64,000 bases of DNA from Nitrososphaerales archaeon (lineage in GTDB: Archaea > Thermoproteota > Nitrososphaeria > Nitrososphaerales > CADDZS01). Both the position numbers and the translations under genes were made by a program. Shown here one piece after another: positions 5,996 through 30,603 of this stretch (positions are counted from its first letter, which is position 1; each line of letters begins with the position of its first letter). The notes beneath the pieces are model-generated. The model did not search any database. It was given only the letters and a program-made list of their open reading frames with translations, and had not been told where the DNA came from. Where the stretch lies: the NCBI GenBank assembly GCA_030041295.1, contig JASHOD010000142.1, forward strand, positions 1-64,000, read 5' to 3'.

Positions 5996-6922
5996 CTAGC
6001 GCTTGATTTTTCGGGAAGACGCCTTTTTCTTTCCTATATTATCCAGGAAATTTGTTACAACCTGAATGTACTTTTCCCTTTCCTCCCACATCGCAAGATG
6101 GGAAGAATTTTGAAACATTACAAACTTCGACCCCTCGATTCCCCTATGGATACTCTTCGCGACTTTTGGGGAAACCTCGTCATACTTGCCGCAGGTTACA
6201 AGTGTCGGGACATGAATAGTGTGAAGTTGTTCTTGGCTTACTTTCCAGTGACGGATGTTTCCTATTATTGTAAACTCGTTCGGTCCGTTCATTGTGTTGT
6301 AGACAACTGGGCTCACGTGTTCCATCGAGTATACGAGTTCCTTCGGCCACGGGTCCAATCTGCAAAAGTAGGTCTTGTAGAACGGCTCAAGAACCTTTGC
6401 GAATTCAGGGTCTGTGTATTCTCCTGCTTCCTCGTACTTTGCCATTGTCGCTAGAACATCTTTGGGGAGCTCTGATTTCATTCGCATCATCTCGGAGATT
6501 GTTAGTTCCATGTCATCTATTCCGCCCGTCGTAACGAGACTTTTTAGATGCTTTTGATAGATTAGGGCATAAGCGATTGCAAGTAGTCCGCCGTAACTTG
6601 AACCCAGCATGTGCACCTTGCCTAGATTCATCGCATCGCGAAAGCCTTCCAAGTCCTCGACAGCACGGTCTATGGTGTAGAGCGCGATATTTTTCGGTAA
6701 GTCAGACTTGCCGCACCCCAACTGATCATAAAAGACCACACGATATCCGTACTGCGCCAGATCTGCGATGGACAGCATGTAGTCGTGAGTCAGCCCCGGT
6801 CCGCCATGGACCGTCAGTACGGTACCTTTCTCTTCATTTCCGAATGATTTGAAGTACAGATTGTAACCGTTGACTGTAACATGACCATCGTCGAATGCTT
6901 TGTCTGCCATTTCCGTTTGCAT
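5996..6922 (-). CDS. Proline iminopeptidase-family alpha/beta hydrolase (copy 2)
   Basis: A 308-aa paralogue of the 4131-5033 product, aligned along its whole length: HGGPGLTHDYML, FYDQLGCGKSDLP, GSSYGGLLAIAYAL with the nucleophilic Ser, MNGPNEFTIIGN, GKYDEVSPKVAKSIH (acid) and SSHLAMWEEREKY (base). The N-terminal MQTEMADKAFDDG leaves two possible ATG starts four codons apart. It sits 40 bp downstream of a second APC permease on the same strand, so the permease-peptidase pair is repeated as an inverted copy. A basic tail (KKKASSRKIKR) is absent from copy 1. Confidence 0.9.
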   Translation of the reverse strand: MQTEMADKAFDDGHVTVNGYNLYFKSFGNEEKGTVLTVHGGPGLTHDYMLSIADLAQYGYRVVFYDQLGCGKSDLPKNIALYTIDRAVEDLEGFRDAMNLGKVHMLGSSYGGLLAIAYALIYQKHLKSLVTTGGIDDMELTISEMMRMKSELPKDVLATMAKYEEAGEYTDPEFAKVLEPFYKTYFCRLDPWPKELVYSMEHVSPVVYNTMNGPNEFTIIGNIRHWKVSQEQLHTIHVPTLVTCGKYDEVSPKVAKSIHRGIEGSKFVMFQNSSHLAMWEEREKYIQVVTNFLDNIGKKKASSRKIKR

Positions 6923-6962: not shown

Positions 6963-8570
6963 TTATTCTGGAGGTATCTCTTTGAATGTCAAATCTAGGT
7001 TAATTCCTTTGGACTTGCGGTAAAGATACGATATCGCGTAGATGACAATCGAAACCACAATTGTCAGAGGCACTATCGCATATGCGAGTTCTTTGACTAG
7101 AGCTGTCCCAACTAATGGAGTTACGGCCGGAGAGACACTTGAATAGGCTATGAATATTGACGCAACCAGTCCTGCAACTCCAAGGATAGTGATGAGAGGC
7201 ACTCCTCCGACTCGTGTTTTGACGACGCCAGGAGCTGATTCAAACATCGCTTTCTTCTTGTAAGGAAATACAATTGCCGCAATCGAGACAAATGCATAGG
7301 CTATGAAGTACGCGAGTGCGGAATAGATGTAAAACTGGAAGAAGATAGTGTAGTAGTAACCGACCACTGTAAGTATGGAAATAATCCACAGGAGGATAAC
7401 ACTTGCATATGGAGCTCCCCGCTTCGAATCTACGTTAGTCAGCCAAGAAGGCAAAAGTCTATCGAAGGACCATGCGAACACGTTTCTGACGCAGACGAAC
7501 GTAAACGCGGTAATGGAGCCGACCGATGTTGCAATTAAAGCGAGAGTTGCTATTACGACTACGAACGGATTAGGGCTTGCAAATACGGCAAGAAAATTCA
7601 ATGACGGCGCAGCGATTGCCGTGTATTGGGGGCTAAGTGAACTCGAAAGATACGAAATATCGGTGAGAAAACTAGAACCGATTGAGTAATACACGGCGCC
7701 ATACAGGAGTGCCATAACTCCTGCTCCCAAGAGAACTGCTCCAAACATGCCATATAGCTGGGATTTTTCTGAATGTTTTACCTCGCCGCCGTAGTACGCA
7801 GAGTTGTTGAAACCAAGAAAATTAATGATTGTGAAGACTCCACCTGTCAATGTAGCTGACAACAGGAATCCACTAGGTATGCCTGCGCTAGATGCCGCGC
7901 TTGTAATCGCGGTGCTATTCATTCCTGATAGACGATTAAAATTAGATATGAAAGTGGCATGCGGAGCAGACAAGAATGCTCCGATCAGGATTAATGTACA
8001 AACAAGAGCGATTCCAAATACTACAGTCAGATACCTGAACACATTTCTCGTGCTCAAGAAAAGCGGCGTCAAGAAAATACACAGAATGACTAGGGAAATA
8101 ATGAAACTGTATGGAAGGGTGGAAACCTTTCCGGCAATAGTCACAAGATTTGCGTTTGAGCCTACTATTCCTAATCCCGCAAGCATAGGTGTCAAACCGT
8201 AGAGAACGATCCAAGCGGCCACGACGCCGTTCGTCGTGACCAGCGTAAAGGTAATCAGCACATTTCCAACGAACCCCGCGGTTGGATGCAGGATTCTACT
8301 TACCCATATGAAATCTCCACCAGTTCTTGGCATTGCGACAGTGAAGAGGTAATAGATTGCCGATAGTAGAAAAGCCGGAATCAGAGCAAAAGCGACGGTG
8401 TAAGGCAAATCCACGCCTGGATACAGCGAGGAGCTGAAGAAGGCGAATACAAGGCCGTATCCTAGGCCCATGACCATGATATTGCCTATCATGGCATAGA
8501 AGCTTCCTACCTCTCTCGTCAGTCCGGTTGCCTCTCTTGCAAAGTAGGTTTTTCTTTGTTGATTTTCCAT
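6963..8570 (-). CDS. APC-superfamily amino-acid permease (copy 2)
   Basis: A 535-aa permease with about 12 hydrophobic segments, clearly paralogous to the protein encoded at 2529-4127. Shared marks are FAREATGLTREVGSFYAMIGN, PRTGGDFIWVSRILHPTAGF, FAWSFDRLLPSWLTNVDSKRGAPY and the C-terminal FKEIPPE. The sequences have diverged through the helices, so this is an old duplication and substrate preference may differ. It is the first gene of a minus-strand set (permease, iminopeptidase, deacetylase). A TATA-like element 27-34 bp upstream of the ATG suggests a leaderless transcript. Confidence 0.93.
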   Translation of the reverse strand: MENQQRKTYFAREATGLTREVGSFYAMIGNIMVMGLGYGLVFAFFSSSLYPGVDLPYTVAFALIPAFLLSAIYYLFTVAMPRTGGDFIWVSRILHPTAGFVGNVLITFTLVTTNGVVAAWIVLYGLTPMLAGLGIVGSNANLVTIAGKVSTLPYSFIISLVILCIFLTPLFLSTRNVFRYLTVVFGIALVCTLILIGAFLSAPHATFISNFNRLSGMNSTAITSAASSAGIPSGFLLSATLTGGVFTIINFLGFNNSAYYGGEVKHSEKSQLYGMFGAVLLGAGVMALLYGAVYYSIGSSFLTDISYLSSSLSPQYTAIAAPSLNFLAVFASPNPFVVVIATLALIATSVGSITAFTFVCVRNVFAWSFDRLLPSWLTNVDSKRGAPYASVILLWIISILTVVGYYYTIFFQFYIYSALAYFIAYAFVSIAAIVFPYKKKAMFESAPGVVKTRVGGVPLITILGVAGLVASIFIAYSSVSPAVTPLVGTALVKELAYAIVPLTIVVSIVIYAISYLYRKSKGINLDLTFKEIPPE

Positions 8571-8604: not shown

Positions 8605-8785
8605 GTTAGAAAGACAACGATACAAAGAAATTCAGACACAAACACTTTATCGTACTTGTCGAATTTACTTGCTCTTTCCTTGGAGTAACTAGACAGTCAT
8701 AGACTTTTTTCCCAATGTGTTTAGACCCTGAATAACCTTATGTGCCACAGTCGTTTTTTCTCAATGTTGAGAAAGCAAATTGTCG

Positions 8786-10126
8786 ATGAAGGAAGTTTTC
8801 GACTACATAGACTCGAGCCACGACAGCGCTATTGAGCTTCTTTCAAAGCTAGTACGGCAACCAAGCGTGGCGGCCACAGGACAGGGCATAAAGGAGTGCT
8901 CCGAGCTGGTTACAAATCTTCTGGGGGAAATCGGAGCAAACCCGAAAGTGTACGATTTGGGCGAGGGGAGCCCTGTAATTGCAGGAGAGATCAAGAGTAA
9001 GAAAAATCCGAAAAAGACGATCCTCTTTTACAATCACTACGATGTACAACCGCCTGAACCTCTTGAGCTCTGGGACAGCCCTCCTTTCTCTCCAACGATA
9101 AAGGAGGGAACTATGTACGGGAGAGGCGTTTCGGACGACAAGGGAGAACTCGCAGGGCGATTGAAACTTACGGAAGCCTTTCTAAAGACTTGGAACGATG
9201 TTCCCTGCAATTTCAAATTTGTTTTCGAAGGCGAGGAAGAAATCGGGAGCATACACTTGGGTAAGTACGTGAAGAAATCCCCGGAGATCTTTCGCGCCGA
9301 TGGAGTAATTTGGGAATTCGGAGGCGTCGACCCGAAGGAACGTCCACAAGTAATCCTCGGCGTAAAGGGCATTCTCTACATTGAACTGACCTCGAAAATC
9401 GCAAAGAAGGACGCGCATTCCTCGTTAGGCGCTATTGTGGAAAATCCTGCGTGGCGCCTTGTGGGGGCACTGAGCACTTTAAAGAAAGACGACGAGATCC
9501 TGATTCCGGGTTGGTACGAAGACGTCAAACGTTTTACAAAAGAGGAGCTCGAATGGATAAGAAAGGCCCCCTACGATGCCAAGTCCGTAAAGCACGAGCT
9601 GGGGATAAAGAACTTCATAGCCGACATGGGCGTGGACGAGGCAAAGAAGGCTCTCGCAGGCAAACCGACTTGCACGATTTGCGGAATGAATTCTGGGTAT
9701 ACTGGAGTAGGTTCGAAGACCGTACTTCCGAGCGAAGCGTTCGCAAAGATCGACTTCAGACTCGTTCCAGATCAAGATCCGGACGATCTAATCAAGAAAC
9801 TGAGGAAGCATCTAGTCTCCAAAGGGTATGGCGATGTGGAGATTGCCTACTCAGAAGGAGAGAAAGCAAAGAGAACCTCGCCGAGGGAACCGCTCGCAAT
9901 AGCTGCAAAAGAAGCAGCTGAGTCAGTATATCAAAAACCGGCCATAGTTGAAATTTCTTCAGCTGGCACGGGTCCTATGTATCTGTTTGATTCGCCTTGC
10001 GTAGCAATCGGAGGAGGTCATGCCTTCACCAATGCCCATGCGCCAAACGAGAACAAGAGGCTGGACTACTTGGTCTCTGGTATGAAATGGGTGGCAGACA
10101 CAGTAAATCGCTTTGCAATACAGTAA
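8786..10126 (+). CDS. M20-family metallopeptidase (dipeptidase/carboxypeptidase type)
   Basis: About 446 aa, of the M20/M25/M40 family of zinc peptidases. Metal and catalytic motifs are in order: YNHYDVQP (His and Asp), GRGVSDDKGE (bridging Asp), EGEEEIGS (general-base Glu and metal Glu), and a C-terminal GGGHAFTNAHAPNE His. The lid/dimerisation domain falls between them (about residues 190-310). The family hydrolyses dipeptides or the C-terminal residue of N-acyl amino acids in the cytoplasm. The frame opens at TTG 8780, but ATG 8786 is a better start. Position next to two permease-iminopeptidase cassettes fits a peptide-degradation role. Confidence 0.92.
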   Translation: MKEVFDYIDSSHDSAIELLSKLVRQPSVAATGQGIKECSELVTNLLGEIGANPKVYDLGEGSPVIAGEIKSKKNPKKTILFYNHYDVQPPEPLELWDSPPFSPTIKEGTMYGRGVSDDKGELAGRLKLTEAFLKTWNDVPCNFKFVFEGEEEIGSIHLGKYVKKSPEIFRADGVIWEFGGVDPKERPQVILGVKGILYIELTSKIAKKDAHSSLGAIVENPAWRLVGALSTLKKDDEILIPGWYEDVKRFTKEELEWIRKAPYDAKSVKHELGIKNFIADMGVDEAKKALAGKPTCTICGMNSGYTGVGSKTVLPSEAFAKIDFRLVPDQDPDDLIKKLRKHLVSKGYGDVEIAYSEGEKAKRTSPREPLAIAAKEAAESVYQKPAIVEISSAGTGPMYLFDSPCVAIGGGHAFTNAHAPNENKRLDYLVSGMKWVADTVNRFAIQ

Positions 10127-11288: not shown

Positions 11289-12284
11289 ATGCAATATACA
11301 CGCTTAGGGTCGACCGGGCTCAAAGTATCCCGTATTTGCCTTGGGACATTCTCATTCGGAAATTCTTCGGAATGGACCCTTGAGATCGACGAGGCGAGAC
11401 CTATTGTCAAGAAAGCACTCGATCTAGGGATAAATTTCTTCGACACCGCAAACTCGTACTCTAGCGGTAGGTCGGAAGAGATAGTCGGTGAGTTGCTAAA
11501 GGACGCGAGAGATGAAGTTGTTATTGCGACAAAAGTGAGGGGAAAGACCGGCGAAGGCGTGAATGATATCGGCCTTTCCAGGTCTCACATCTTGAGAGAA
11601 GCAGAAAGGTCGCTAAAGAGACTCAAAACTGATCGAATAGATCTGTACCAGATTCACCGTTGGGACTATGAAACTCCAATAGAAGAAACGCTATTTGCTA
11701 TGAATGATCTTGTTAGATCTGGCAAGGTGACCTACATCGGAGGTTCCAGTATGTTTGCTTGGCAATTTGCAAAGGCGCTCTTTACGAGCGACCTTCATGG
11801 CATTGCGAGATTTGTGTCGATGCAAAATCACTACAACCTTTGTTACCGGGAAGACGAAAGAGAAATGATTCCGCTGTGCAGGGATCAGGATATCGCAATT
11901 ATTCCGTGGAGCCCTCTAGCTCGTGGTTTCCTCTCCGGCAAATACAAACGCGGACAGATACCCGAAAGTGCAAGAGCAAAATCGGATCGATACTTACCGG
12001 AGAGATTCTTCAAGCCCGAGGACTTTGATGTTGTTGAGGGGGCCGAGCAAGTAGCAAAGGAAAAGGGAACCAATACATCACAGGTTGCACTCGCATGGTT
12101 ATTCCATAAACAAGTCACTTCTCCAATTATCGGAGCGACAAAGATCGAACATGTGGAAGAGGCAGTGGCAGCTCTTCAGTTGAAACTTTCTAGTGACGAT
12201 CTGAAAAGGCTAGAAGAACCGTACAAGATGCATCCCGTGATTGGCCACGGAGGCCCTGAACTCACAAAATTATTTACTGGCTAA
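11289..12284 (+). CDS. Aldo/keto reductase (copy 1)
   Basis: A 331-aa TIM-barrel NAD(P)H oxidoreductase of the YajO/AKR11-like group. The N-terminus MQYTRLGSTGLKVSRICLG is typical. The catalytic tetrad is visible as Asp and Tyr in FFDTANSYSSGRSEE, Lys in VVIATKVRG and His in DLYQIHRWD. SSMFAWQFAKAL and IIPWSPLARGFLSGKY are conserved barrel segments. It reduces aldehydes or ketones of unknown identity. A paralogue lies at 19438-20421. It is probably transcribed alone. Confidence 0.93.
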   Translation: MQYTRLGSTGLKVSRICLGTFSFGNSSEWTLEIDEARPIVKKALDLGINFFDTANSYSSGRSEEIVGELLKDARDEVVIATKVRGKTGEGVNDIGLSRSHILREAERSLKRLKTDRIDLYQIHRWDYETPIEETLFAMNDLVRSGKVTYIGGSSMFAWQFAKALFTSDLHGIARFVSMQNHYNLCYREDEREMIPLCRDQDIAIIPWSPLARGFLSGKYKRGQIPESARAKSDRYLPERFFKPEDFDVVEGAEQVAKEKGTNTSQVALAWLFHKQVTSPIIGATKIEHVEEAVAALQLKLSSDDLKRLEEPYKMHPVIGHGGPELTKLFTG

Positions 12285-12406: not shown

Positions 12407-13042
12407 TTAATGAAGCAGGGGAATTCCCCAGTGTTCGAGAAAATAAGCTAGAGAAAGCTCTGAAGCTTTGTACATTGTGTGGATAGGCAGAGAAGGAAAC
12501 TCCTTGTCCTTCTGTCTCGCGAGCCACTCGCTGTGGCACGGAATATGGATAAAGCCGCCTCCGAACCCACCCTTTCGGGCTCCTCTTACTATGACGAACA
12601 TTGCGTTGTTGCATAGATATCCCCCGGCGGTTGTGCTAATCTCGCTCGGTATTCCGGACTGATTTAGATGCTCGACAAGTCCTTCAACCGGAAGATTTGT
12701 GAAAATTCCATCGGGAGCTGTCTCGTCAATGGGCACTCCGTTCATGATTTTGCCAGTCTTGTCCGGGGCGTGTGTATAGCGGTAGTTTATTGCGATCTTC
12801 TCGGGCGTGTATTTGGCTCTACTCGCAGCAAGACCAAATCCGACAACTAGCAAGGGATTCACCGAGTCTATTGCGGAAACGATTTCCCTCTCTACTGTCG
12901 AATAGTCGACGTGAAGAATTCTTGCAACGACTTCCTGTCCACTAAAACTCTTATTTTCAAGATGCTTTGCGATTAATCCAGATGGGTTCTCGTCGAATTC
13001 GAGAAAGGGTTCAAAGCCAAATACTAGAATTGCCAGTTTCCT
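12407..13042 (-). CDS. pcp: Pyroglutamyl peptidase (C15), start codon anomalous
   Basis: Removes N-terminal pyroglutamate (5-oxoproline) from peptides in the cytoplasm. The frame encodes the family hallmarks in order: VFGFEPFLEFDENPSG at the N-terminus, PEKIAINYR (catalytic Glu), GGYLCNNAMF (catalytic Cys) and GGFIHIPCHSE (catalytic His). Total length is about 207-211 aa, as in the family. The first ATG in frame (12862) would remove the essential FGFEPF region. Between it and an in-frame TAG at 13043-13045 there is no ATG, GTG or TTG. Translation must start at ATT 13030 or CTG 13036, or a single-base indel has separated an upstream ATG (about 13077) from the frame. It follows the oxoprolinase-like genes on the same strand. 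Confidence 0.85.
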   Translation of the reverse strand, partial: RKLAILVFGFEPFLEFDENPSGLIAKHLENKSFSGQEVVARILHVDYSTVEREIVSAIDSVNPLLVVGFGLAASRAKYTPEKIAINYRYTHAPDKTGKIMNGVPIDETAPDGIFTNLPVEGLVEHLNQSGIPSEISTTAGGYLCNNAMFVIVRGARKGGFGGGFIHIPCHSEWLARQKDKEFPSLPIHTMYKASELSLAYFLEHWGIPLLH

Positions 13043-13113
13043 CTACCTTTTCTTCTGGGCTCAACTCTAGCGAGCATTCTGAAATTTAAAGGCATTGTAA
13101 TGTTGGCGAAAGT

Positions 13114-14784
13114 TTAGACGCTATAGCCGCATTTCTCTGCATAATCTCGAGTGATCAGCCCGTCTGCGATATCCTCGATGATTTTTTCAGTATCTCGGTT
13201 TTTTGGATTTCCATAACCCCCACCGCCAGCCGTGTAGATTTGCACAATATCTCCTTGTTCGAGAATCGTGGTTGATTTGATCGGAATGTCCCTCGCCTTC
13301 TCATCCGAGCGAGCCCGTAGCAAAGTAACTCTCATGTTCACGCCCTCCCTTCCGCCGTCTAGCCCCCACGGTCTGTGTCTACCTCGCTCTGCCAAAACTG
13401 TAAAGACTGTCCTAGAGTCGCTCCTTGATTGAAACGCCCGTATCAATCCTGACCCTCCTCTGAATTTGCCGCCTCCGGAGCTGTTCTGCCTAAATTCGTA
13501 GCGCACTATCAGGAGGGGCAGGTTTCGCTCGATATCCTCAATAGGTGTATTCATCGTATTTGTCATGTTTCCTTGGATTCCGTCTATTCCATCTGATTTC
13601 GGTCGACCACCCAGACCGACCCCGGCAGTCTCGTAAAAAGCCCAGCTCTTTCCGTTGTGGATCCCCCCAATCATTACGTTGTTCATAGAGCCTCCGGATG
13701 CGGCAGGAACCTTCTCCGGCGAGGCCCTTGCCAGTGCTTTGAACAGAAGGTCTGCGTTTCTCTGACTCGTCTCGACGTTGCCCCCTGCGACGGGCGCAGG
13801 GAAATTGGGATTTACAATCGTGCCGCTTGGTGCAAAAACTTCGATTGAAGAAAATGCTCCGAAATTTGGAGGGACGTCCTTTCCAGTTAATGTCCTCATC
13901 ACGTAGTAAACTCCGGAAAGTGTAACACCGAACACAGCATTTAGAGCAAGTGGAAGCTGCGGATCCGTTCCCGAGTAATCCACGGAGATCTTCTCCCTCG
14001 AAATCTTGATTTTCACCCTAAGAGTGATGTCGCTCCTTCCATCCGGGTGCTCTAGGTAATCTGTAGCCTCGTAAGTCCCCTTCCTCAAGGAAAGCAGTCT
14101 TTTCTTGACGAGACGTCTCGCATAGTCGAAGGAAGATTCGCAAGAGTCAACAAATATATCATATCCATACTTTTCGACGAGAGACAAGAGTCTACGCTCG
14201 CCGGTGACATTCGCCGCGACCTGTGCTTTCAGATCGCCTAATCGCTCCGAGGGGGTGCGCGAATTTGAAGAAAAGAATACGAGGGTCTCCTGGACAAATT
14301 CATCATTCTTCATCAAGAATACCGGATTTAGCATAAAACCCTCCTCAAAAACGGAGCTGGAGTCTACTGTGATGCTTCCGGGTACCTTCCCACCAACGTC
14401 AGAGTGATGAGCTTTGTTTGCAGCAAAGGCGATTAGTTTCTTCTTCCCATAGAATATAGGGCGAACGACAGTAACATCATTGAGATGAGTTCCAGCGACA
14501 TATGGATTGTTAACAACTAGCATCGAGCCAGGTTCGAAATCGATTCTTTCCCTATCACAGTAGTCAATTATGTTTCGTAGACCCCAAGGAAGTGAGCCCA
14601 GATGGACGGGGATATGTTCAGCCTGGGCAAGCAACCTACTTTCATAATCAAAGAGAGCCGCAGAGTGATCCATTCTCTCCTTTATGTTAGGCGAATAGGA
14701 CGAATTGCGAAGAGCGATTCCCATTTCTTCGCTCGCATAGTAAAGGGAACTGGCTACGAGTTCACGGGTGATTAGATCGCTCAT
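13114..14784 (-). CDS. Hydantoinase B/oxoprolinase-family subunit (probable 5-oxoprolinase beta)
   Basis: A 556-aa HyuB-type subunit. Family segments are EEMGIALRNSSYSPNIKERMDHSAALF near the N-terminus, VNNPYVAGTHLNDVTVVRPIFY with conserved His/Asp residues, NKAHHSDVGGKVPGS, and the glycine-rich ending AERGRHRPWGLDGGREG and GDIVQIYTAGGGGYGNP. With HyuA it forms ATP-dependent enzymes that open cyclic amides (hydantoins, 5-oxoproline) or carboxylate acetone. Neighbouring pyroglutamyl peptidase makes 5-oxoproline the best guess: cleavage of 5-oxoproline to glutamate with ATP hydrolysis. HyuA ends 3 bases upstream, so the two are cotranslated. Confidence 0.9.
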   Translation of the reverse strand: MSDLITRELVASSLYYASEEMGIALRNSSYSPNIKERMDHSAALFDYESRLLAQAEHIPVHLGSLPWGLRNIIDYCDRERIDFEPGSMLVVNNPYVAGTHLNDVTVVRPIFYGKKKLIAFAANKAHHSDVGGKVPGSITVDSSSVFEEGFMLNPVFLMKNDEFVQETLVFFSSNSRTPSERLGDLKAQVAANVTGERRLLSLVEKYGYDIFVDSCESSFDYARRLVKKRLLSLRKGTYEATDYLEHPDGRSDITLRVKIKISREKISVDYSGTDPQLPLALNAVFGVTLSGVYYVMRTLTGKDVPPNFGAFSSIEVFAPSGTIVNPNFPAPVAGGNVETSQRNADLLFKALARASPEKVPAASGGSMNNVMIGGIHNGKSWAFYETAGVGLGGRPKSDGIDGIQGNMTNTMNTPIEDIERNLPLLIVRYEFRQNSSGGGKFRGGSGLIRAFQSRSDSRTVFTVLAERGRHRPWGLDGGREGVNMRVTLLRARSDEKARDIPIKSTTILEQGDIVQIYTAGGGGYGNPKNRDTEKIIEDIADGLITRDYAEKCGYSV

Positions 14785-14787
14785 AAG

Positions 14788-16863
14788 TCAGGAACTCCCA
14801 CTGTATCGCGAGAGTGTCAGGTTTCCAAATTGATCCATCCTCCACGACCAGGTTGAGTTTATTATGGCGGTTGAATCATATTCCTCGACGATGCAGGGCC
14901 CCTTTCCTTTCATTCCGCTGGCGAGACTCTCTCTTTGGATAGTGTGCACGTCGTAGAATTTATTTGAAACCCAGGCTCTTCGTTTGCTCCCAATTGGCTT
15001 GGATGATCCAATTAGATTTCTTTTGGGAGCTAGTTCGGGTTTTTTCGTCGGAATCAAGGCGCGCAATTTCGCGTTCACAATTTCTATTCTGTCATCGGAA
15101 GAGTAACCATAATGCTCTTTGTGCTTCAAATTGAATTCTCTTTCGATATCTGTTGCGGATTTTTTCTTTCGGTATGGAATCGGCATTTCATAAGATTGAC
15201 CCAAGTATCGAGCTTCCACAAACTCGAAGAACCTGAATTTAGAAATTGTTTTTTGTCCTTCCCCTTTCTCTCTAAATTCGCCAATGGCTTTCCTTGCCGT
15301 CCTCCTTAGCTTCTCAAAATACTGTTCAAGGTCAACTGATGCCGTGTCGCCCATGACGGGAATTGCGAAATTTCTTTCAATATCAGCTGTCAAGAGTCCA
15401 TAAGCCGAGAATAGACCGGCGTGAGGGGGAAGAACGATGTTTGAAATCCCCAGATCTTCGGCTAGATCACAAGCATGCATTGGTCCGGCGCCACCGAAGG
15501 CGAACAGGGTATAATCCCGGGGGTCCCTTCCGCGTTCCACGCTTACAATCGAAATAGCGCGGGCCATCTCATTGTTCACTATGTTTATGATTCCTCGGGC
15601 TGCCTTTTCAACGCTTGTTCCGAGTTTTGTAGCAATGTTTGTCTTCAGAGCCTTGTAAGCGAGATCCTTACGTATCTTCATCCTGCCGCCAAGGAGAGAA
15701 ACCGGATCAAGTCTTCCGAGAACAATATTCGCGTCGGTCACTGTCGCATCCTTACCACCTCTGTCATAAGCAGCTGGGCCAGGATCAGAACCTGCGCTTA
15801 GAGGGCCGACTCTTAGGGCACCAGCTTCATCGACGTAGGCAATCGTGCCGCCGCCCGCACTCACCTCCGCAAGATCAATGAAGGGAGCTCTGACCGCGTA
15901 GCCACTTCCCTTGATCGACCTTCCACTATGGCTCCCGCCCGCCACTTCGAACTCGAAAGCAACGTCAGGCTCGTAGTTTACAATCGCTCCGGCTTTCGCA
16001 GTAGTGCCGCCCATGTCGAAGGTGAGTATTTTTTCGAGTGATAGTGATTTGGCCAAATACCGGGAGGCAAGCACTCCCGCGGCGGGACCCGATTCTATCA
16101 TTAGCATCGGGTAACGTGATGCTTGTTCGATTGTGCTGACGCTGCCATCCGAGTTCATCACATAAATCGGCGATAAGAATGCTTTTTCTCGCAGGATCTC
16201 ACTTAGGCGTTTAAGATACTTTGAAACTAGAGGCGCGAGCGAGGCATTGACCACGGTGGTGCTGAATCTTTCGAACTCCCTGTACTCACGGTTCACATCG
16301 CTGGATGTGTCAATGTGACCTTTGAATCCCTCATCCCTGAAAATTTTGGCAGCCTCTTGCTCGTGGCTCATGTTCACGTACGAGTTAAGAAAACAAATTG
16401 CAAGTGACTCGTAACCTTTTTTCGAAATTTTCTTTGCAATTCTAATTAGATCGAATTTCGAAAGTGGTTCGAGTTCGCTTCCGTCGGCGAGTATGCGTCC
16501 CCTTACTGTGTACCTATCTCTACGACGCACAATGGGAATTGGTCTTTTGTTCTCAATGTCGTAAAGCTCGGCCCTTCTCTGCCTTCCAATTTCCAGAATG
16601 TCTCTAAAGCTCTCGTTTGTGACAAGCGCCGTACGCGCTAGGTTCGTATGAGTCAATAATGCGTTTGTCGCGGCAGTCGTGGCGTGAGAAATTAGGACAA
16701 CCTCTTTTGCATCCCTCTTATAATCCTCTAGGCCATTCAAAATGCCCTGAGCGATATTTCCTGGGGTTGTTGGGACCTTTGTGACCCGTAGGTCCTTTCT
16801 CTTCTCGTCGTAGACTGTTACGTCTGTGAATGTGCCCCCGACGTCAATTCCAATGTATAACAT
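14788..16863 (-). CDS. Hydantoinase A/oxoprolinase-family subunit (probable 5-oxoprolinase alpha)
   Basis: A 691-aa ATPase subunit of the hydantoinase/oxoprolinase family. Two actin-like phosphate-binding motifs are present, [14 protein letters not shown] at residues 6-19 and [13 protein letters not shown] in the middle. Other family marks are [28 protein letters not shown] and [19 protein letters not shown]. It activates the cyclic amide by phosphorylation while the B subunit completes hydrolysis. It is the first gene of a minus-strand operon HyuA-HyuB-pcp, which supports 5-oxoproline as the substrate. N-methylhydantoinase or acetone carboxylase remain possible, but no gamma subunit for the latter is nearby. 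Confidence 0.9.
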
Positions 16864-19437: not shown

Positions 19438-20421
19438 ATGGAATACGTCAGGTTCGGGTCGACAGGCGTCAAAGTTTCGAAGATTTGTCTTGGTTGCATG
19501 TCCTTTGGGAACGAAGCCAAATGGATGGTAGATGGAGATGCGGCAAAATTAGTATTGAAAAGAGCCTGGGACCTCGGAATAAATTTCTTCGACACCGCCA
19601 ACGTCTATTCGAATGGGAGATCTGAAGAAATTCTTGGTGAGTTCCTTAGCGGCTTTCGCGACGATGCCGTTATCGCAACGAAAGTGTATAGCGAAATGGG
19701 GCCGCTCCCAAACCAAAGGGGGCTGTCGAGGCGACATATCATGTGGCAGTCGAGGGAGTCGCTCGCGAGATTAAAAACAAAGTACATCGACCTCTATCAG
19801 ACTCACAGGTGGGACTACCAAACCCCCACCGACGAAACTCTCTCCGCCATGACAGATCTAGTTAGAAACGGATCCGTGAATTACATTGGTGCATCCAGCA
19901 TGTGGGCGTGGCAATTTGCAAAGGCACTTTACATAAGTGACCTCAAGGGTTATGCACGTTTTGTCAGCATGCAGGATCTATATAATTTGATATACCGCGA
20001 GGAGGAAAGGGAGATGATCCCGCTATGCAAATCAGAAGGAATAGCCCAAATCCCCTGGAGTCCGACCGCGGCAGGGTTCCTTTCGGGAAGGTATTTTCAA
20101 AATGGAAAACTCGCCGCGTCGGAGAACGATAGTGCGCGACTTGCACCGGGATCCTTCACCTATTCTAGATACGTCGGAAAACCTCGGAGCGATCAGATTG
20201 TCGCTAGGACAATCGAAGTTGCGAAGAACAACGGAGTAACACCGAATCAAGTCGCTCTCGCTTGGCTATTCAAGAAGGGAGTCACGGCTCCGATAATCGG
20301 CACGTCGAAGGTCGAGCATTTGGAAGAGATGGTAGAGTCGATCAATGTCAAAATTTCAGATGATGAGACAAAATATCTTGAGGAACCTTACGCGCCGCAG
20401 CCGATATCCGGATTCACCTAA
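19438..20421 (+). CDS. Aldo/keto reductase (copy 2)
   Basis: A 327-aa paralogue of the 11289-12284 product. It begins MEYVRFGSTGVKVSKICLGCMSFGN. Tetrad residues are FFDTANVYSNGRSEE (Asp, Tyr), IATKVYSEMG (Lys) and LYQTHRWDYQTP (His). The loops after strand 7 differ (SGRYFQNGKLAASENDSARLAPGSF), suggesting a different substrate. Its last four bases overlap those of the convergent PLP-enzyme gene. Confidence 0.93.
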   Translation: MEYVRFGSTGVKVSKICLGCMSFGNEAKWMVDGDAAKLVLKRAWDLGINFFDTANVYSNGRSEEILGEFLSGFRDDAVIATKVYSEMGPLPNQRGLSRRHIMWQSRESLARLKTKYIDLYQTHRWDYQTPTDETLSAMTDLVRNGSVNYIGASSMWAWQFAKALYISDLKGYARFVSMQDLYNLIYREEEREMIPLCKSEGIAQIPWSPTAAGFLSGRYFQNGKLAASENDSARLAPGSFTYSRYVGKPRSDQIVARTIEVAKNNGVTPNQVALAWLFKKGVTAPIIGTSKVEHLEEMVESINVKISDDETKYLEEPYAPQPISGFT

Positions 20422-27666: not shown

Positions 27667-30603
27667 CTACTGTTTCTTCTCTAGTTGTACCCTTACTCCG
27701 GCCGCGGCGTCTTGCTCACGTGGTTTTGTCCCTTCACTGACGGAAATACCACTTCCCCCGTCCACCCACGCCATCTTGCGTTGAAGGGTTGTCGTGTAAA
27801 GTACCTTCCAATCCAGTCCAATCCGATCCGCCCAAGTTTTGAACACACGAGGATCAATATAGTTGCGTAGAGAGGTGTTCAAGTTGTAATCACGCGTTTG
27901 CTCCGTGAGCTCGATTTGCTTTCTCAGTTTTGCGATCCGAATTTTGAGCCGTTCCTTCTGCTTGTCTGTTTTCACCGTACTTTGTTCTAATTGCGCGAGC
28001 CTTTCCTTCTTCTTCTGCAAGGTTTGCTCGAAGGTTTTGGGAGGAGTCCTTTTGTGGTTGCATTTCAATGCAGCTTCAAGGTTTGCAAGGCGAGCCTCGT
28101 AGATCTTCTCGTGCTCGGGAGTCCCCTCTAGGAACTTGTTGTGGATTTTCAGATAATCTTTCACGACTGTTGTCGCAAGAAAAGTGCGAAACACCTTCGC
28201 GGTAAGGCCTGGTGAGGCTCTACCGAAGAAGTCATTTACATGGCGTGATGTGATTCCGTCAAAAATCAGATCGTCAGGTTTCTTGCCCTTGCAAAATTCA
28301 CGAAGATTGTCGATCGCGACACTTTCGCTTGGACTCACTTCGAGAGTTTTCTGCCACCGAACATAGTCCTTTCCAAAGAAATCGAAATCGACCGCGTTCT
28401 GCCGCGCAAAGATTAGATGCTCAACGCGTAGGGTGGATGCCCCAACCGTATCGGCCTCGTCCTCGTCTTTTTCATCTCCGACCCTCATCGCGAGCCTATA
28501 AATTAGAAAACAAGCGGTTGCAATCTTTCTCTCTTTTGGATCTTTCGACTTCATTGATTTCAAAATATAGGACTCGACTTTTCTGATATCTTTCTCCAGT
28601 TTCTGCGCCTTGTCATACTTGCTCTTGTCGCGCATTTGACGAATGCTCGATGAATCGTGCAACCAAACGTACTTCACTTTGTCAGCGAGTTTATCAGTCC
28701 AGCACGCAATCCACATGCATTCTGGTTGGTGTACGATCTTCCATTTTTTGTTCTCAGGATTTGGGGCGTTCTCATCTAGGTTTAACGTGACATCTTCTTC
28801 CATTACTCTCGGTTTCCAATGACCTCGAAGAGGGTGCGAATTATGAACAACAAATCCATCCGCGATGAAATTTGGATCGCTCGTCTCAGCCATTGAAACA
28901 TCATAAGTTTGGGCTTTTCCAGCTTCTTTTATCGAAAGAACTTTTTCAAGACAAAACAGTTCTGAATCGAGGACTTGTAATCTTGACCAGTCCCACTTTG
29001 CGCGCAAACTATTCGATCGTGTATCGAATGAATTGAATTTGCTTCTTGAACCTTCAAGAATATCACCTTCATCCAGCAGCAGTCGACATACAGATTTGTA
29101 TTCGCTAACAAAAAATCGATACGTCTTGCTTGACGAATATCCATGGCGATCTCTAGTTGTAAGATTGGAAACTTGGAGGCTTGCACTTATCGCTAGTTCA
29201 CGAAAATCCTCGATTAGGCGACGGTTAGGAGACTCGAATCCGAAAGATGAATATTGAATACCATTTACGCGGTTGACAAAGTAAGCGCCATCAGCATCCG
29301 CATAACCTCTGATTAGCGCACATTTGAGATCATCCGCAAGTCCAAATACCCATGCGGGTACCCTCTTCGTCAGCGCCGTACCGGTTACCCCCAACGACTG
29401 GATCGCGGAAGCGAACTCCGTGGAAAATACTTGCAAAACCCAAGAATTTCCAGGAGGGTGTCTTACAATATCAGGAACTAGACCGAAAACCTCTTCGCAT
29501 ATCTTCGTATAACGATCGACGAGCTTCTGATGATCCTCCGAAAAAGAGACAACTGATCCGACGCTATTACTCCTTCTGCTTATGTAACCATCCCCTAAAT
29601 AATAGCCCAGGAGACGAGCGAGCTTTGGCGTAACAATCATTCCGTTGACTGTTCGTGAGGGCGTGTTACTGTATTTCGTAGTGCCCGGCGTTTGATACCT
29701 TTTGACAGTTACAACATAGTCGCCTTTCTTCAAATCGGACAAGTTAATCCATTTAAGAGATGCGGGAAATTTTTCTTTCGTAAAATTACCGTTCTCGTTT
29801 CTCCGAGGAACCTTTTCGATGCGAAGCGTGAGAAAAGGATGATTGGATGTAGCTCGTATCGAATGAGTTCGCGTCCTCAGGTTGAGTAACGTTCTGACAC
29901 CTTGAGGAGCGATCGAATGAACCGGCTTGTAGAACATCTTTGAAGATCCATGATGGGTTGCAATCATCTCATTTGCGACGAGCTCTTGGACATATTTTGG
30001 TCCATTGATTGCTTTAACTATGGTATCTCCAGATACGCATCCTCTGCCCATGAACAAACCGGGGGGTTCGACAACCCAATTAGCAATCTCAGTCCTGACC
30101 CCGTCCACTAGGGCATAACCGTATTTTTCCTTGAGTTCTAGCCTTTTCTTTTTTCTCTCGGCCGCTAGAGCCTTCTTTTGCTCCTTTGTCAGCTCGACCT
30201 TTTCGGGAAGTGTTGGAAAAACAATGTCGGAAATCCCTGCATTCTTGTATTTCTCGTGGAACAGCTTTAGAAAATCAGAAAGAAAGTTTTGTTGGAAGAT
30301 CGGGTCCTCGACGTAAGGCGTTCCGATTTTCTTTGCCCACGCTACCGCCATCTCCTCCTGGGCGAGGTTCATATTGATCTTGTCGCCTTTAATGAACAGG
30401 ATATTGGTCCGTGGATCTGACTTGTATGGCTCTGGAAATACAACCCCGTTATGAGCTAGAGTAGCCCATTGCTTCTTTCTCGAACTAACCCTAGGCTGCC
30501 CCTCCTCTTCTGCCTCTTCCTCCTCATCGTCGCTCTCTTCATCAGCATCAGCAGAGTCGATTCCGTCTTCTTGTTCTTGCTCCAGTTCCTCGACCTCGGT
30601 CAT
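27667..30603 (-). CDS. DNA topoisomerase IB (eukaryotic type) interrupted by an intein
   Basis: A 978-aa precursor; removing the 400-residue intein leaves 578 aa, the size expected for archaeal TopoIB. The N-extein (1-188) has an acidic tail and ends VVEPPGLFMGRG. The C-extein (589-978) begins SHPLRGHWKPR; together these match the conserved PPGLFRGRGNHP region of eukaryotic Top1. Catalytic Arg707 lies in RLAMRVGDEKDEDEADTVG and the active-site Tyr915 in LRNYIDPR. A coiled linker (about 850-900) precedes it. The enzyme relaxes supercoils through a 3'-phosphotyrosine intermediate. TopoIB is a marker of Thaumarchaeota among Archaea. The gene is monocistronic. Confidence 0.96.
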   Translation of the reverse strand: MTEVEELEQEQEDGIDSADADEESDDEEEEAEEEGQPRVSSRKKQWATLAHNGVVFPEPYKSDPRTNILFIKGDKINMNLAQEEMAVAWAKKIGTPYVEDPIFQQNFLSDFLKLFHEKYKNAGISDIVFPTLPEKVELTKEQKKALAAERKKKRLELKEKYGYALVDGVRTEIANWVVEPPGLFMGRGCVSGDTIVKAINGPKYVQELVANEMIATHHGSSKMFYKPVHSIAPQGVRTLLNLRTRTHSIRATSNHPFLTLRIEKVPRRNENGNFTKEKFPASLKWINLSDLKKGDYVVTVKRYQTPGTTKYSNTPSRTVNGMIVTPKLARLLGYYLGDGYISRRSNSVGSVVSFSEDHQKLVDRYTKICEEVFGLVPDIVRHPPGNSWVLQVFSTEFASAIQSLGVTGTALTKRVPAWVFGLADDLKCALIRGYADADGAYFVNRVNGIQYSSFGFESPNRRLIEDFRELAISASLQVSNLTTRDRHGYSSSKTYRFFVSEYKSVCRLLLDEGDILEGSRSKFNSFDTRSNSLRAKWDWSRLQVLDSELFCLEKVLSIKEAGKAQTYDVSMAETSDPNFIADGFVVHNSHPLRGHWKPRVMEEDVTLNLDENAPNPENKKWKIVHQPECMWIACWTDKLADKVKYVWLHDSSSIRQMRDKSKYDKAQKLEKDIRKVESYILKSMKSKDPKERKIATACFLIYRLAMRVGDEKDEDEADTVGASTLRVEHLIFARQNAVDFDFFGKDYVRWQKTLEVSPSESVAIDNLREFCKGKKPDDLIFDGITSRHVNDFFGRASPGLTAKVFRTFLATTVVKDYLKIHNKFLEGTPEHEKIYEARLANLEAALKCNHKRTPPKTFEQTLQKKKERLAQLEQSTVKTDKQKERLKIRIAKLRKQIELTEQTRDYNLNTSLRNYIDPRVFKTWADRIGLDWKVLYTTTLQRKMAWVDGGSGISVSEGTKPREQDAAAGVRVQLEKKQ
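28840..30039 (-). mobile_element. Intein with LAGLIDADG homing-endonuclease domain in TopoIB
   Basis: In-frame insertion of exactly 400 residues between GRG and SHP of the topoisomerase. Splicing motifs are Cys1 in CVSGDTIVK (block A), ATSNHPFLT (block B), YDVSMAETSDPNFIADGFVVHN (blocks F and G, cut here by the 20-residue limit of readers only in spirit), the terminal His-Asn pair and Ser as +1 residue. Two dodecapeptide endonuclease motifs, LLGYYLGDGYI and LIRGYADADGAY, retain their acidic residues (intein positions 150 and 250). Both the splicing and homing activities therefore look intact. Confidence 0.93.

Follow-up and report, generated by a model that had tools for sequence, protein, structure and literature searches.

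The hyuA-hyuB-pcp trio

A 64,000-nucleotide stretch of an uncultured, soil-type Nitrososphaerales archaeon (the window) carries the genes for HyuA, HyuB and the pyroglutamyl peptidase Pcp, which adjoin one another on the minus strand and encode products with intact catalytic residues (Table 1). The window is positions 1-64000 of contig C56 of genome G000, an archaeal metagenome-assembled genome of 3.68 Mb with 96% completeness and 7% contamination. An initial annotation had placed the three genes on one strand in this order, which is confirmed along with its coordinates for HyuA and HyuB. The gap between HyuA and HyuB is 3 bp, and GC content is level throughout the region. Judged from sequence, HyuAB probably belongs to the two-gene archaeal type of ATP-dependent 5-oxoprolinase and would dispose of the 5-oxoproline made by Pcp (probability about 0.75). 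HyuAB annotation is among the most ambiguous, with such pairs named hydantoinase, oxoprolinase, caprolactamase or carboxylase.

As expected of this family, the pair has the Hydant_A_N, Hydantoinase_A and Hydantoinase_B domains in adjacent genes, the Asp pair of the ATP site (D7 and D283 in HyuA) and a complete Asp-His-Asp-His metal site in HyuB (D39, H100, D103 and H126). The reference positions in caprolactamase are D11 and D295 of CapA and D41, H99, D102 and H124 of CapB (PMC8453981).

The only open reading frame (ORF) of pcp with a standard start codon covers 151 amino acids (12407-12862), and the frame stays open to 13042. The Peptidase_C15 match (Pfam cut-off 22.7 bits) spans 12458-13030. 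Homology begins at about 13030, and a CTG at 13036 would give a product of 209 amino acids beginning 77 bp past the HyuB stop codon; this CTG is the likely start. No ATG, GTG or TTG lies upstream of 12862 in the frame, so that either a non-standard start or a base error in the assembly must be involved. The gene and strand initially annotated for pcp thus stand, but its boundary is extended beyond the 151-residue ORF. As expected of a C15 peptidase, Pcp has the domain, the Glu-Cys-His triad (E79, C142 and H164 in the 209-residue numbering, invariant in seven archaeal homologues) and an N-terminal GFEPF motif, and the archaeal Pcp structures 1iu8 and 1a2z align with it over nearly their full length. 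The NCBIfam model PRK13193 gave 171 bits against a cut-off of 271, a score obtained on the truncated 151-residue ORF only. A scan for sigma-70 promoters and terminators was set aside as uninformative for an archaeal host.

A second pcp-like (C15) gene lies at G000:C98:52603-53208 (L059), and similar genes occur at L054, L057 and L061. The L059 cluster also includes amidohydrolases and pyrB-/pyrI-like, SHMT-like, xanthine-dehydrogenase-like and amino-acid/carbamate-kinase-like genes, and L054 has ORFs of the same size and order. The triad is kept in the products of L059, L054 and L057, but their N terminus reads GFEG(F/W) in place of GFEPF, so this second type may be no pyroglutamyl peptidase.

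Table 1. Positions of the trio and of neighbouring features in the window.
Feature	Position	Strand	Details
HyuA, predicted 5-oxoprolinase ATP-binding (ASKHA-type) subunit	14788-16863	-	691 amino acids; Pfam Hydant_A_N, Hydantoinase_A, Hydant_A_C
HyuB, predicted metal-binding hydrolase subunit	13114-14784	-	556 amino acids; Pfam Hydantoinase_B, 590 bits
pcp, pyroglutamyl peptidase I (C15)	12407 to about 13036	-	about 209 amino acids; Peptidase_C15, 128 bits
TATA-like box TTTAAATT in the HyuB-pcp gap	13083-13090	-	exact match
M20 peptidase (PRK06446 / dipeptidase-like), outside the trio, peptide-catabolism context	8780-10126	+	
APC-type amino-acid permease, context	6963-8570	-	
Proline iminopeptidase family hydrolase, context	5996-6922	-	TIGR01250 over cut-off

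A residue fingerprint in the HyuB pocket

Ten HyuB columns were picked whose residues reach 95% conservation or more within the archaeal clade and are wholly or almost wholly missing from the caprolactamase, the fused protein 7hk5 and the paralogues. The choice (N33, R37, E56, H57, N336, S340, N369, Y384, T413 and K503) was made blind to the fused oxoprolinases. Seven of these columns are no more than two residues away from a column that aligns with a published pocket residue of caprolactamase; random sets gave a mean of 1.05, and none of 20,000 reached seven. Eight of the ten recur in fused OPLAH-type proteins of 1192-1205 amino acids (binomial P 0.004), references that are called 5-oxoprolinases by architecture, motif and annotation only and whose identity as a whole is just 33-34%. 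These fused proteins are encoded on bacterial plasmids, in one case beside a TRAP transporter.

A refined fingerprint comprises 12 HyuB columns (NIKER-H-N-S-M-N-Y-T); it was chosen after three of the fused proteins had been seen and is therefore biased towards those three. All 12 residues are present in the window HyuB, in Saci_0368 of Sulfolobus acidocaldarius, in the Sulfolobaceae cluster described below, in two haloarchaea and in four fused proteins. Among sequences held out from the choice, one fused protein (L186) and the Halocatena HyuB (L184) score 12/12, and the two-gene HyuB of L179-L183 and L185 score 1-5/12, the low scorers including genes annotated as N-methylhydantoinase B and hydantoin utilisation protein B. 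Plasmid-borne HyuB annotated as hydantoinase, references known by their annotation, score 3-5/12. The caprolactamase subunit CapB has 0/12, 7hk5 1/12 and the HyuB of a second pair in the window genome (on contig C148) 1/12. The rule is not absolute, since one clade member (L156) has 9/12.

Two other discriminators were tried and dropped. Lys40 of CapA (PMC8453981) fails because the aligned position 40 is Gly and the Lys at 32 is invariant throughout. The HyuA motif was given up because the DRGG loop marks the fused proteins alone. Human and yeast 5-oxoprolinases share the motifs NIKER(L)D and DRGGTFTD.

In the trees of HyuA and HyuB alike, a supported clade unites the window pair with Saci_0368/0369, while the caprolactamase 6YRA, the fused 7hk5, the C148 pair (30-34% identical to the window pair) and a second S. 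acidocaldarius pair fall elsewhere. Locus L144 was taken as Saci_0368/0369 because its ORFs of 505 and 640 amino acids have the lengths given in PMC6507225. When fused proteins and a haloarchaeon were added in a second pair of trees, the HyuA part of the fused proteins stood separate from all others and their HyuB part took no settled position, so that the shared HyuB pocket cannot simply be read off the tree. The second S. acidocaldarius pair (L145, G221:C1:1858506-1860071) has 1/12 pocket residues and is absent from the candidates of the 2019 pyroglutamate paper (PMC6507225).

We lean slightly towards a wider view, in which the fingerprint marks true 5-oxoprolinases among archaeal HyuAB of the two-gene form and among fused enzymes of the eukaryote type, and two-gene HyuAB is a main archaeal route of 5-oxoproline disposal, placed in some lineages within clusters for gamma-glutamyl- or pyroglutamyl-peptide utilisation (GGT-pcp-Opp-HyuAB in Sulfodiicoccus, HyuAB-pcp here). 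The fingerprint is the most useful outcome of this analysis and, with the Sulfodiicoccus cluster, deserves follow-up. By separating probable 5-oxoprolinases from their relatives, and with the second gene cluster behind it, it would allow many archaeal genes to be annotated more precisely and put to a simple assay.

If HyuAB is a 5-oxoprolinase acting with Pcp, Pcp would cleave N-terminal pyroglutamate from peptides, as its family and intact triad suggest, and free 5-oxoproline. Following published models for caprolactamase and 5-oxoprolinase (PMC8453981), HyuA may use ATP to phosphorylate 5-oxoproline in its lactim form, after which the ring may be opened at the HyuB metal site to yield glutamate and phosphate. 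The invariant R37, close to the metal ligand D39, and the polar HyuB pocket could hold the carboxylate of the substrate.

Two haloarchaeal plasmids (L177 and L184) have a HyuAB pair that carries the whole fingerprint and comes immediately after a gene for an Nramp-type transporter, and in one of them a maleate cis-trans isomerase-family gene comes after HyuAB.

Gene neighbourhoods and competing readings

A Sulfolobaceae cluster independent of the window also links pcp to HyuAB. In G439, taken as Sulfodiicoccus acidiphilus HS-1 (region L143), the gene for gamma-glutamyltranspeptidase (GGT), pcp, a five-gene oligopeptide ABC transporter (Opp), HyuA-HyuB and an amidohydrolase lie together, so that HyuAB is joined to genes for gamma-glutamyl- and pyroglutamyl-releasing enzymes and for a peptide importer. 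The pcp of this cluster is of the window type, and its product is 43% identical to the window Pcp. In a congener (G513, L167) the core of this block recurs within 11.5 kb, with all genes intact (HyuB 522, HyuA 653, Pcp 214 and GGT 518 amino acids) and about 12 bp between pcp and GGT. The arrangement differs from that of the window trio and the hosts are distant, so the link between pcp and HyuAB has arisen at least twice; G439 and G513 are of common descent and represent a single event. Both GGT and HyuA are broken into two frames in G439, whereas G513 has them whole; the cause is either an error of sequencing or recent decay of the genes. GGT genes occur elsewhere in the window genome, outside the trio.

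The two genes also co-occur more often than expected. Within the host's order (151 genomes), pcp is found in nine genomes, HyuB in 32 and both in seven, that is, in 7/9 genomes with pcp (Fisher P 0.0003, uncorrected for kinship). Across the phylum (398 genomes) both are present in 25 (Fisher P 0.01, likewise uncorrected), and they are close together only in the window genome and in G439, at 8 kb.

We read HyuAB as a 5-oxoprolinase because of the HyuB fingerprint, the Sulfolobaceae cluster and the absence of PxpA (LamB_YcsF), for which no match was found in the window genome or in eight other genomes of the same family. The HyuA and HyuB trees, the S. acidocaldarius data and the co-occurrence of pcp with HyuB add further support. 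The substrate proposed in the initial annotation, 5-oxoproline, is thus supported by the fingerprint, the phylogeny with Saci_0368/0369, the Sulfolobaceae cluster and the lack of PxpA, but the argument from gene order on which it had been based is weak.

Several observations weigh against our reading, and most of them concern gene order. Of the seven genomes in the order with both genes, the window genome is the sole one in which they share a contig. None of the closest HyuAB orthologues (L043, L044, L046, L047 and L049, with HyuB 60-70% identical) has pcp alongside, although less than 0.5 kb of DNA is available past HyuB in L044 and L047. Nor was pcp found in the available DNA (up to 10 kb) around the best 80 HyuB loci in named genomes, selected by the pattern NIKERMD or [YF][AT]SEEMG[IV]; in 56 of these, 3 kb or more of sequence follows HyuB. 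As a control, the same profile recovers known pcp genes. When 43 of these genomes were searched whole, pcp was present elsewhere in 14, and 29 had HyuAB without any pcp. The TATA-like TTTAAATT between HyuB and pcp, found once more within the window (two observed, 5.1 expected), suggests that pcp may have its own promoter. Beyond gene order, the fused references owe their class to annotation and architecture as described above, the HyuA loop reads DVGGTFTD in the window and DRGGTFTD in the fused enzymes, and Saci_0368/0369 are themselves a candidate 5-oxoprolinase without gene-level proof. A conserved pcp-HyuAB neighbourhood, offered initially as a check on function with its lack named as a refuting result, therefore does not hold in close relatives, in the order or at the 80 named loci. 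By that standard the synteny argument is refuted for the close relatives, among which the adjacency is unique to the window genome, and conserved synteny with pcp was dropped as functional support there. No earlier report of a pcp-HyuAB operon was found in the literature searched.

Another possibility is that HyuAB is a 5-oxoprolinase that mainly clears spontaneous 5-oxoproline, and that pcp is an independently transcribed neighbour without a functional tie. 5-Oxoproline also arises spontaneously, from glutamine and glutamate. The TATA-like box in the HyuB-pcp gap, the unconserved adjacency and the fact that most clade genomes searched have HyuAB but no pcp would all be expected if this were so, yet the separate pcp-HyuAB-Opp-GGT cluster in two Sulfolobaceae species and the excess co-occurrence of pcp and HyuB speak for a tie. 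We regard it as a serious but lesser possibility; it overlaps with the reading that we prefer and differs from it in the source of the substrate only.

An ATP-dependent hydantoinase or general lactamase (of the caprolactam, valerolactam or N-methylhydantoin type), with pcp adjoining by chance, seems unlikely. The top NCBIfam matches are indeed the caprolactamase subunits CapA and CapB, the protein matched best in the PDB is fused and goes by the name N-methylhydantoinase, and the unconserved adjacency would fit as well. However, the window pair falls far under the NCBIfam equivalog cut-offs for caprolactamase (439 and 255 against 1000 bits), lacks the vicinal Cys pair, is separated from these enzymes in the trees and differs from CapB and 7hk5 in nearly the whole fingerprint, and its neighbours include no recognisable gene for a carbamoylase or hydantoin racemase. 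A ketone (acetone or acetophenone) carboxylase is highly improbable: the superfamily is common to both, and there are weaker matches to ApcC/ApcD and AcxA/B, but the Apc scores are far under cut-off, no gamma-subunit gene lies beside the pair, pcp follows HyuB, and subunits of 691 and 556 amino acids are short and hydrolase-like by published criteria (PMC5214803). A 5-oxoprolinase acting on the product of Pcp remains the reading that we prefer.

Across the clade, nothing is universal among HyuAB neighbours, which include diverse MFS, SSF and branched-chain ABC transporters, a TPP enzyme and DUF72. Eight archaeal HyuAB loci (L101, L118, L121, L128, L134, L135, L136 and L140; mostly Bathyarchaeota) have a 2,4-diaminopentanoate dehydrogenase homologue nearby, in most cases immediately upstream of HyuA, which possibly hints at a different substrate or pathway.

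The surroundings of the trio include genes for a protein of the proline iminopeptidase family, an M20 dipeptidase-like protein and two APC permeases. These are apparently transcription units apart from the trio, and they would fit a peptide-degrading life style. A genome of the same family (G023; JAPCJU010000066, isolate SubAcS9-71) has been counted among the "Heterotrophic Terrestrial Thaumarchaeota" (PMC10640624). Two similar aldo/keto reductase genes bracket the region (window positions 11289-12284 and 19438-20421), and a DNA topoisomerase I of eukaryote type, apparently interrupted by a LAGLIDADG intein, is encoded at 27667-30603 on the minus strand.

Comparison with known systems

Two-gene archaeal HyuAB was proposed as a 5-oxoprolinase in 2019 (PMC6507225), and the window pair is a further candidate of that kind, not a new kind. 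The suggestion in the initial annotation that the trio would settle what an ambiguous family does was therefore too strong, both for this earlier proposal and for the paralogues with different pockets. Pyroglutamate supports growth of S. acidocaldarius, the 5-oxoprolinase activity of its extracts is stimulated by ATP, and Saci_0368/0369 transcripts are higher when the medium contains glutamate (PMC6507225); by analogy, these data support the assignment proposed here, short of gene-level proof. Like the window genes, Saci_0368/0369 form an adjacent pair, and they share with them a clade and an identical 12-residue fingerprint, with Saci_0369 41-43% identical to the window HyuA and Saci_0368 about 43% identical to the window HyuB. 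In S. acidocaldarius, unlike the window, pcp is at 1.545 Mb and Saci_0368/0369 at 0.31 Mb.

The fused OPLAH/OXP1 type and its bacterial counterparts resemble the window pair in their HyuA and HyuB domains, their HyuB metal ligands and, for the bacterial plasmid proteins, the full fingerprint, but they are single chains of about 1200-1290 amino acids with 30-34% identity. Given its two genes and DVGGTFTD loop, the window pair is not filed as OPLAH and is related to that type in the HyuB pocket only.

CapAB of Pseudomonas jessenii (6YRA; PMC8453981) shares with the window pair its two subunits, fold family, and ATP and metal sites. It differs in identity (28-31%), in having none of the fingerprint residues and in its vicinal Cys410-Cys411, where the window HyuB has G405-N406, and it was reported to be without 5-oxoprolinase activity (PMC8453981).

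PxpABC is the other prokaryotic 5-oxoprolinase (PMC13274462); its reaction is the same as that predicted for the window HyuAB, but the proteins are unrelated. If our reading is correct, HyuAB would account for the removal of 5-oxoproline, a damage product, in archaea that lack PxpABC.

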